A stretch of 64,000 nt of DNA from Gammaproteobacteria bacterium (lineage in GTDB: Bacteria > Pseudomonadota > Gammaproteobacteria > Burkholderiales > Gallionellaceae), in NCBI GenBank assembly GCA_018813765.1, contig JAHJBC010000001.1:1-64000 (forward strand). Direction: 5' to 3'. The notes beneath the pieces are model-generated. The model searched no databases, was not told the origin of the DNA, and worked only from the letters and a program-made list of their open reading frames with translations. Position 1 is the stretch's first letter. Every line of letters starts with the position of its first letter. The position numbers and the translations under genes are program-made. Positions 60,690 through 63,057 of this stretch are shown one piece after another.

Positions 60690-61751
60690 CTATCCAGCCA
60701 ATGCCACGCACACTTGCGCCACTTGTTGTGTCGCGTCCGGTTTTGCCAGGCTGTGCGCGGCTTGCGCCATCGTCAGCAGCTTCTCTCGCGTCATCTCGCG
60801 CAGCAGTTGCGCCAATCTTTCCGCGCTCAGTTCCGTTTGCGGCAACAACACCGCCGCACCGTGCTCGCTCAGGAAGCGCGCGTTGTGCGTCTGGTGATCG
60901 TCCACCGCAAACGGGAACGGTACCAGCACGCTCGCCACGCCCGCCGCCGCGAGTTCGGCGATGGTCAGCGCTCCCGCGCGGCAGATCACTACATCGGCCT
61001 TGGCATATTGCTCCGCCATGTCGTCGAGGAAGGCGCGGATGTCCACGCTCACGCCCGCCTCTGCATACAGTTTTTGCACGGCCTCGAAATTCTTTTTGCC
61101 GGTCTGGTGCAGCACGTGCGGGCGCTCCTGTTCACTCAGCAACGCCAACGCTTGCGGCAATGCCTCGTTCAACGCCTTCGCCCCGAGGCTGCCGCCCACC
61201 ACCAACACGTTCAACTTTCCGCTGCGGCCAGCGAAACGCACTTGTGGTACAGCTAATGCAGCGATGTCGGCGCGCACCGGGTTGCCGCACCACTGCGCTT
61301 TCTTCAGCACCTCCGGGAAACCGCTCAGCACGCGGTCCGCCAGATGCGCCAGCACCTTGTTGCTCAGCCCGGCGATGGAGTTCTGCTCGTGGATCACCAG
61401 CGGCCGACCGAGGAATGCGGCCATCATGCCGCCGGGGAAGGTGATGTAACCGCCCATGCCCAGCACCACATCGGGACGGTGACGCAACAGTGCCGCGATG
61501 CTCTGTGCGAATGCGCGCAACAACAACAACGGCAGCAGCAGCAGTCGCATCACCCCCTTGCCGCGCACGCCGGAGAAATTCACCCAAGCCACCGGGTAGC
61601 CATGTTTCGGCACCAGATCCGCTTCCATGCTGTTGGGCGCGCCCAGCCACATCACGTTCCAGCCCTGCGCGTGCAACGCATCGGCCACTGCCAGCCCCGG
61701 GTAGATATGCCCGCCGGTGCCGCCGGCCATGATGAGGATGGTGCGGCTCAT
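60690..61751 (-). CDS. murG: UDP-GlcNAc:lipid I GlcNAc transferase MurG
   Basis: A 353-residue membrane-associated GT28 glycosyltransferase that makes lipid II. The N-terminal loop is [19 protein letters not shown], the mid-protein [20 protein letters not shown], and the donor site [19 protein letters not shown] and [19 protein letters not shown]. The start ATG overlaps the stop of the small open frame 61748-61897, not that of ftsW itself. Confidence 0.96.
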
Positions 61752-61897
61752 ATCGGCAACCCCCGAGCCACGCGTCTGTTTTGGCTACGGCCGCCCCGTT
61801 GGTGCTTAACTTGCTTACGCAAGTTAGCCTGCGCCGAAACCGCCGGAATGCAGCGATTCTGGCTCCGTATTTCAATGTAGAGGTTCTCAATGCTCAT
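61748..61897 (-). CDS. 49-codon open frame between ftsW and murG
   Basis: The frame starts with an ATG overlapping the ftsW stop (ATATGAGC) and ends with a TGA overlapping the murG ATG in the same way. The product begins [20 protein letters not shown] and ends [11 protein letters not shown]; FtsW ends [11 protein letters not shown]. Over the shared ten residues the DNA differs at eight positions, all of them synonymous. The middle contains a perfect hairpin (61807-61826). It may be a translated coupling peptide, or the remains of an imported ftsW tail next to an inserted repeat. Confidence 0.4.
61807..61826. repeat. Perfect hairpin in the ftsW-murG interval
   Basis: The palindrome taacttgc-ttac-gcaagtta lies in the middle of the 49-codon frame. 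It could be the centre of a small repeat element that separated ftsW from murG. Confidence 0.6.
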
Positions 61898-63057
61898 ATT
61901 GGCAAACCTCGCGCGACCCGGCGGTTTTCATAATCGATTCTGAGCAACACCGCGATCGCCATCAGGTTCACCACCACGCCACTGCCGCCGAAGCTCAGGA
62001 ACGGCAGGGTCAGTCCCTTGGTCGGCAGCACGCCCATGTTCACGCCGATGTTGATCATCGCCTGCACGCCCAGCCACACCGCGATGCCCTGTGCCACCAG
62101 CGCAGCAAACAAGCTCTCGGACATCGCCGCCTGGCGGCCGATGGCGAAGGCGCGCACGATGAGCCAGCCGAACAGCAGGATGACCGCACTCACGCCGAAC
62201 AGGCCGAGCTCTTCCGCGATCACTGCGAGCAGGAAGTCGGTGTGCGCTTCCGGCAGATAGAACAGTTTTTCCACGCTGCCACCGAGGCCGACGCCCAGCC
62301 ACTCGCCGCGACCGAAAGCAATCAGTGCGTGGCTCAACTGGTAGCCTTTGCCGAAAGGATCGGCCCAGGGATCGAGGAAGCCCAGCACGCGCTGGGTGCG
62401 GTACTCGGACGAGAAGATCATGACCACGAACAGCAACGGCAGACCGACCGTGAGCGCCCCGAATATCTTCAGATTGAATCCGCCCAGCCACAGGATGCCC
62501 ATCGCGATGGTGCAGATGACCACCAGCGCGCCGAAATCCGGTTCCATCAGCAGCAGTACGCCGACGAACCCCATCACGCCGAACATCGGCAGAAAGGGTT
62601 TGAGCAAATGGTCCTTCACCGCGCCCTTGCGCACCGCATAGTCGGCCGCGTACAACACCGCGAACAGCTTCATCAGTTCTGAGGGTTGCAGGTTGAACAC
62701 GAGGAACGAGATCCAGCGTCGGCTGCCGTTCACCGCACGCCCGATGCCGGGGATCAGCACCAGCACCAGCAGCACCACGCCGATCAGGAACAGCCAGGGC
62801 GCGTACTCCTGCCACTTCCGGGTCGGTATCTGGAAGACGATCACCCCGGCCACGATGCCGACCGTGATGAAGAGCGCATGGCGCATCAGGTACCAGGTCG
62901 CCTGGTGTCCGGTGTATTTGCCTGCTTCGGCTGTGGCGATGGAGGACGAATAAACCATCACCAGACCGATGGCGAGCAGTGCCGTGACGATCCATGCCAG
63001 CACGTTGTCATATTCGGCCACGACGCGGCGCGGCGCATTCAATGTCGCGCTGAGCAT
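61894..63057 (-). CDS. ftsW: Peptidoglycan glycosyltransferase FtsW
   Basis: A 387-residue SEDS-family protein with about 10 membrane segments, polymerising lipid II at the septum. Marks are [54 protein letters not shown] (the SEDS catalytic loop region) and [13 protein letters not shown] [14 protein letters not shown], plus [15 protein letters not shown] near the C-terminus. The start overlaps the end of murD by 19 bases. Its last ten residues are repeated by the next open frame. Confidence 0.96.

Follow-up and report, generated by a model that had tools for sequence, protein, structure and literature searches.

Several described systems share features with the insert analyzed here. Prophage e14 integrates into the icd gene of Escherichia coli, and the available text of the sources gives a duplicated 165-bp gene end that differs at 12 nt, with two conservative amino-acid changes (PMC11148124, PMC6379469). 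In both cases, the target gene receives its 3′ end from the element that integrates into it. However, e14 appears in the same available text as a prophage with a putative integrase gene and apparently one target (PMC11148124, PMC6379469), whereas the elements described below are about 75–170 bp long across the family, use about 20 kinds of target gene, and contain a hairpin core together with an inverted tail copy. In the flanking DNA examined, up to 1.2 kb upstream, we found no site-specific integrase of their own of the e14 type, no other recombinase gene, and no long autonomous version of the element.

Rickettsia palindromic elements, of about 150 bp, lie in frame in genes according to the available text of PMC10969869. 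Two copies of our family (L060 and L070) are likewise in-frame insertions, their hosts being genes for a pyruvate:ferredoxin oxidoreductase and an AcrB-like protein, but 90 of 141 copies differ, in a comparison by description with that text, in lying at gene ends with a replacement end and stop codon. Enterobacterial RU elements are short repeats (103–168 bp) with open frames that join host genes, as here; the available text of PMC2759123 reports frame fusions, whereas here a gene end is replaced by an equivalent, recoded end. The IS200/IS605-derived palindromes of REP/RAYT systems are, like the present element, short DNA hairpins (PMC3733652, in the text available). Finally, termination–reinitiation at ATGA overlaps is established (PMC6728339, available text), and the junction described here keeps the stop–start overlap known from such translational coupling, with the difference from the cases in the available text of PMC6728339 and PMC10666635 that the overlap is preserved through inserts by a bridging frame. 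An open-access literature search returned no report of such preservation and no description of this element family, a result that is not proof of absence.

The window, a 64,000-nt stretch of DNA from a member of the Gallionellaceae, contains an ftsW–murG junction with the following features.

61894..63057, minus strand: ftsW (387 aa); its last codons, within 61894-61928, are apparently element-derived
61783..61928, minus strand: inserted element of 146 bp, flanked by G (61929) and by the AAAAC of the displaced tail
61894..61928, minus strand: D1, the apparently element-borne substitute ftsW 3′ end (AAAAC CGC CGG ... ATA TGA)
61847..61893, minus strand: spacer, poorly conserved (48–56% against same-length elements of L012, L016, and L089)
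61837..61846, minus strand: A′, an inverted copy of the D1 start, 10/10 complementary to 61918-61927
61783..61836, minus strand: core, made of CGGC-GNAG-GC, a TAAC hairpin, a second hairpin, and GGCC-GNAG-CC
61748..61782, minus strand: D2, the putative displaced resident ftsW tail with its stop, adjoining the murG start
61748..61897, minus strand: bridging frame of 49 codons, from the ftsW stop to the murG start
60690..61751, minus strand: murG (353 aa)

Read in the ftsW sense, the layout is G/AAAAC-tail and stop (D1), spacer, A′, CGGC GNAG GC, TAAC hairpin, second hairpin, and GGCC GNAG CC, followed by AAAAC, D2, and murG, with the insertion point at G/AAAAC among the last codons of ftsW. The original prediction described a frame that joins the ftsW stop to the murG start by overlaps and ends in the ten C-terminal residues of FtsW, and both parts were borne out. 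The ATG of the 49-codon frame overlaps the ftsW TGA (61894-61896), and its TGA (61748-61750) overlaps the murG ATG (61749-61751). Codon-by-codon comparison of the upstream tail (AAC CGC CGG GTC GCG CGA GGT TTG CCA ATA) with the downstream tail (AAC AGA CGC GTG GCT CGG GGG TTG CCG ATA) gave the eight predicted base differences and no amino-acid change; the 37-nt repeat formed by the two tails is 78% identical. A covariance model built from eight element copies (R1) matched the core at 61776-61842 with 91 bits. This is the one real core copy in the window, as two further model matches are weak (E 0.22, inside the same core, and E 0.38). Folded as DNA, the complete insert scored weakly (z = -1.84; 10 of 200 shuffles were as good). 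When Rfam family models were compared with 61500-62100, none matched the insert; the sole match was a chance-level snoRNA outside it.

The duplicated tail is not a chance feature, as the same type of insert lies at the same ftsW codons in 25 loci and other genes have this layout at their ends as well. We consider it likely that a short mobile element inserted at G/AAAAC of ftsW, bringing a substitute tail, displacing the resident one, and keeping the frame for murG. The left end of the element would encode a substitute FtsW C-terminus with codons of its own, a stop, and an ATG overlapping that stop; A′ and the folded core would follow, and the resident tail would be pushed downstream intact, next to murG. 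Each tail would have been coding in a lineage of its own up to the insertion, which would explain why their differences are all synonymous. The open frame across the insert would be due to translation of murG by ribosomes arriving from ftsW, such that inserts breaking the chain are lost. Recurrence at identical sites in different species, together with the mismatch between tails, suggests that the element is mobile, and the insertion in the window appears to be recent.

Whether the middle part of the frame occurs elsewhere in this genome had been raised as a check, and it does: R1 gave nine matches at E ≤ 0.1, the window copy included. A search of the genome with the middle part added two partial matches, both beside duplicated gene sequence, one next to a tRNA-Leu gene (complete, by ARAGORN) and the other at the end of an ornithine carbamoyltransferase gene. 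R1 matched all 34 genomes of the genus at E ≤ 0.001 and, at E ≤ 1e-4, 63 of 200 genomes of the order, representing 37 of 108 genera. In a sample of 229 genomes of the class, searched at the stricter E ≤ 1e-6, this genome was matched and none of the other 228 was, at least two of which share the order. A blastn search of plasmids and phages with the core as a single 74-nt query found nothing at E ≤ 0.01. Three loci, L239 (G053), L240 (G114), and L241 (G061), hold head-to-tail arrays of 3–6 copies at spacings of 74–145 nt.

Core pairing was examined on 118 matches (117 distinct). Both sides had changed in 19 of 22 pairs and 96.7% of cells were paired, in a test that is somewhat favorable to structure since the structure was derived from the same family. 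None of 500 shuffles reached this level, and slid controls dropped to 29–44%. In a comparison of RNA and DNA folds over all pairs, 83 cells were G-U and 38 were A-C, with 24 of the G-U cells in a single column pair. The GNAG tag at the hairpin foot resembles the GTAG tag of REP/RAYT. Being short, dispersed, and without a transposase gene, the element is like a MITE; it differs in lacking a short exact target-site duplication. A′ pairs with D1 but varies with the target.

FtsW-family matches were present in all 41 related genomes, although in G012, G023, and G030 only at the level of paralogues. At the related loci that contain both genes, many junctions without the insert have a plain 4-nt ftsW/murG overlap, and others carry the same type of insert at the same codons, some of them (L013 and L027) with two or three copies in tandem. 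The best 80 of 577 confirmed loci all have murG downstream of ftsW. Across these and the window genome (81 junctions), the element, assigned by inspection, is present in 18 and the ftsW–murG gap is below 30 nt in 48; the species compared are related, so junction and tail counts are not independent. The 25 element-bearing ftsW loci, picked by reading, consist of 17 from the best 80 of 577 and 8 from related genomes, and L216 and L217 are two more ftsW insertions beyond these.

Two other kinds of insert were seen at these junctions. The murG head at L094 and L096 has apparently been replaced by a related, oppositely oriented element lying upstream of the gene, with a displaced copy of the murG start before the element and a new start codon after it. 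At L009, L021, L025, and L109, a different palindromic repeat (CACAGAGAACACAGAG-like) lies between ftsW and murG, and the coupled frame is also left open.

A script found overlapping frames chained from the ftsW stop to murG in 23 of the 25 element-bearing junctions; in the remaining two (L094 and L096), the frame overlaps the murG start by 8 nt. Frames at L216 and L217 also chain to the murG start. Among 23 junctions with non-element inserts, the frame on the ftsW stop is open to murG in 20, compared with 7 of 46 for the other two frames. Long inserts (gap of at least 30 nt; 18 element and 15 other) were scored somewhat more leniently, with a frame counted as open if it came no further than 6 nt short of murG codon 1, and all 33 keep the chain, against 14.6 expected from length-preserving dinucleotide shuffles; their other two frames are open in 0 and 6. 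Since these expectations are 4.9 for the element inserts and 9.7 for the 15 others, the element set carries most of the signal.

Selection on the peptide had been judged unlikely in advance if all relatives lacked the frame and the other copies carried stops; instead, relatives carry the same insert type and their frames are open. The peptides themselves vary in sequence and in length (36–93 aa). Two reading frames run through the core, giving VSAKAN... and FRRRLT..., and at L013, where the core frame is a different one, the displaced tail nevertheless terminates at the correct stop. In several D2 copies, the first codons have drifted but the tail end is preserved, giving peptides such as NILLS, NTLHL, NPLL, and NSQI. 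Because the chain is kept while the peptides differ, translation through the insert appears to be selected and the peptide does not. The original suggestion of a translated peptide under selection thus stands for the open frame, which is kept in all 33 long inserts and looks selected, but not for the peptide, which varies from copy to copy and has a drifting displaced tail in several of them. A functional 49-residue protein would account for the open frames of the ftsW copies and the intact tail peptide of the window; given the differing lengths and sequences, the two reading frames of the core, and the fact that non-element inserts obey the same open-frame rule, we regard such a protein as extremely improbable. 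The frame seems to be kept open for translational coupling of murG to ftsW. If the favored reading of a tail-replacing mobile element is true, an essential operon tolerates insertion, with the element replacing what it breaks and the bridging frame keeping the next gene translated. These junctions would then form a natural experiment, one pointing to dependence of murG translation on ftsW in Burkholderiales.

By eye, the drifted first codons of D2 at L100, L112, L129, and L139 could pair with the Shine-Dalgarno region of murG (CCCC/GGGG, CCTCC/GGAGG). Such pairing, if true, would tighten the coupling.

The family is not confined to ftsW. We compiled 141 distinct copies from 118 matches at 99 loci (among the genus matches listed and the ftsW set) and 24 further loci, with one duplicate removed; the 24 remained from 27 loci of the order (L212-L238) after three cut loci were dropped. 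For 90 of the 141, the stretch from the D1 start to the core contains the end of a sense frame of 100 codons or more, and where D1 was found it starts 16–110 nt before the core. Family searches with 21 of these 90 proteins identified 20, L176 having no match: ornithine carbamoyltransferase, ribonucleotide reductase alpha, glutamate 5-kinase (twice), SmpB, AccB, MetK, PstB, RecA, transketolase, GlmS, DnaB, aspartate transaminase, DapD, MraY, pyruvate kinase, SerS, DnaJ, a solute-binding protein, and a VWA protein. With ftsW included, there are 20 kinds of target gene, argF, glmS, proB, nrdA, smpB, metK, recA, dnaB, serS, and mraY among them. Identity between the displaced and the encoded tail is still 60% or higher in 59 of the 90 copies, 23 of which have identical peptides; in the other 31, the displaced tail is decayed or unrecognizable in register. 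Changes pooled over the 59 tail pairs are 388.6 synonymous and 160.4 not, in a set where the 60% filter favors synonymous change and which includes tandem copies and the same gene in several species. If the element does bring its own gene end, the final codons of recA, ftsW, argF, and similar marker genes can be foreign.

A plain target-site duplication, in which the resident tail was duplicated at length on insertion and both copies then drifted, would suit some copies: D1 and D2 are exact in L194 and L042 and nearly so in L192 (99%) and L191 (98%), all tandem arrays, and a 17-nt stretch is repeated without mismatch in L070. Among the 90 copies compared, D1 and D2 differ in nearly all, with exact identity confined to the tandem copies L194 and L042. 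A free copy should gather mostly amino-acid changes, but several ftsW copies show none or few, and the 22 pairs of ftsW tails give a pS of 0.69 and a pN of 0.17. Moreover, all 25 element-bearing ftsW genes share a GAA-AAY start of D1, compared with 32 of 72 element-free ones (8 loci without the motif set aside; Fisher p 1.3e-7, kinship not corrected), and 40 of those 72 have GAG. In the window, D1 also breaks from its own flank. Together, these observations make duplication an unlikely account.

The break in the window is sharp. Just upstream of GAAAAC, ftsW is 113/120 and 57/60 identical to the nearest empty-site relative; the tails are 23/33 (D1) and 26/33 (D2) identical to it. D2 is nearer than D1 to the native tail in 13 of 15 relatives, with two ties, and codon likelihood is -16.0 for D1, -9.1 for D2, and -9.0 for the native mean. 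The D1 codons are thus unlike those of the ftsW relatives of this genome, and the upstream tail looks foreign and the downstream tail resident. Other species are mixed, as were codon likelihoods in five of them. At L008 and L047, it is D1, not D2, that is closer to native tails (10/15 and 9/15); L016 leans toward a native-like D1 (7 vs 4), L046 is about even, and L012 agrees with the window. We infer from this mixture repeated arrival and loss of the element. A′ pairs better with D1 than with D2 in 18 of 20 pairs, with one tie and one reversal in a decayed tail; the script found no A′ in 2 of the 22 pairs. In comparisons across species, similarity is higher for D1 than for D2 in 14 of 16 pairs, and higher for the core in 16 of 16. 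The window spacer is just 48% identical to those of elements of equal size in its genus, which makes the lineages old, and the D1 similarity may partly reflect constraint.

One tail had been proposed to come from a related ftsW–murG junction, with a repeat inserted between the two. For the window this comes close, although the uniform GAA-AAY start, the pairing of D1 with A′, and the sharp break from the ftsW flank point to what was probably a single event, with the upstream tail part of the element. Exchange of dcw genes is plausible, and ordinary homologous recombination could have imported an ftsW 3′ end and insert from another species without any special mobility here. Consistent with such import, the tail of the insert-free L017 is exactly the D1 of L008 (33/33), with an ftsW body only 250/300 identical. 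However, the break in the window falls at GAAAAC itself (57/60 upstream, 23/33 after), and the same layout occurs at about 20 kinds of gene, which leaves homologous recombination a quite improbable explanation.

Candidate mobilizing enzymes were compared between element-bearing and element-free genomes. In contrast to REP/RAYT systems, no Y1 transposase was found at E ≤ 0.001 in the element-bearing G053, G062, G068, and G071. Y1 transposases occur in 45 of 63 element-bearing and 78 of 137 element-free genomes (p 0.06), and their absence from these four genomes and this p value disfavor Y1/RAYT as the mobilizer. Reverse transcriptase is also disfavored, as matches at E ≤ 1e-8 occur in just 5 of 16 element-rich genomes, the same as in the element-free ones (5 of 16). 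Integron integrases are commoner in element-bearing genomes (43 of 63 vs 42 of 137; Fisher p 7e-7, kinship not corrected), and this genome encodes one near a contig end (G000:C3:726-1667, L259). Both facts would fit a core that is an integron attC site moved by the integron integrase. Yet 20 of the 63 element-bearing genomes, including G053 (18 copies) and G122 (16 copies, 85% complete), have no integrase match at 1e-60, a strict threshold at which diverged or broken integrases may be missed. The best core score in five integrase neighborhoods was E 0.27. An attC pattern search there gave two candidates (L260 and L263), of which only that at L263 is classical-looking and neither resembles the core; a simple attC pattern had no hit in the first 8 kb at L259. 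By eye, the R boxes GTTRRRY/RYYYAAC do not frame the core, whereas in an integron gene cassette they are located in an array by intI. We therefore hold the attC explanation to be very unlikely.

The favored reading, a mobile element that replaces the gene end it enters, can be tentatively extended. These copies may represent a new class of mobile DNA built around a hairpin core, which would swap gene ends by homing from one species to another at set codons of some 20 conserved genes, carry a target-matched, recoded, functional end with its inverted copy, and be moved by a hitherto unrecognized recombinase that responds to DNA structure instead of a single fixed sequence. We see this as possible rather than probable. 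The family would be a tractable one in which to find the mobilizing enzyme.

Some copies lie at other kinds of site. The element is beside complete tRNA-Leu genes at L036, L058, and L207 and beside 5S rRNA genes at L040 and L068. At L036 and L058, a truncated tRNA-Leu-like copy that is split by the element adjoins the complete tRNA-Leu gene, and of the two ARAGORN detects just the complete gene. At L057, L059, L164, and L168, the element lies at the start of a gene read against it, which we presume to be nuoD, and the head of that gene is duplicated, exactly over 43 nt (L057) and 36 nt (L059), with one mismatch in 33 at L164 and more at L168.
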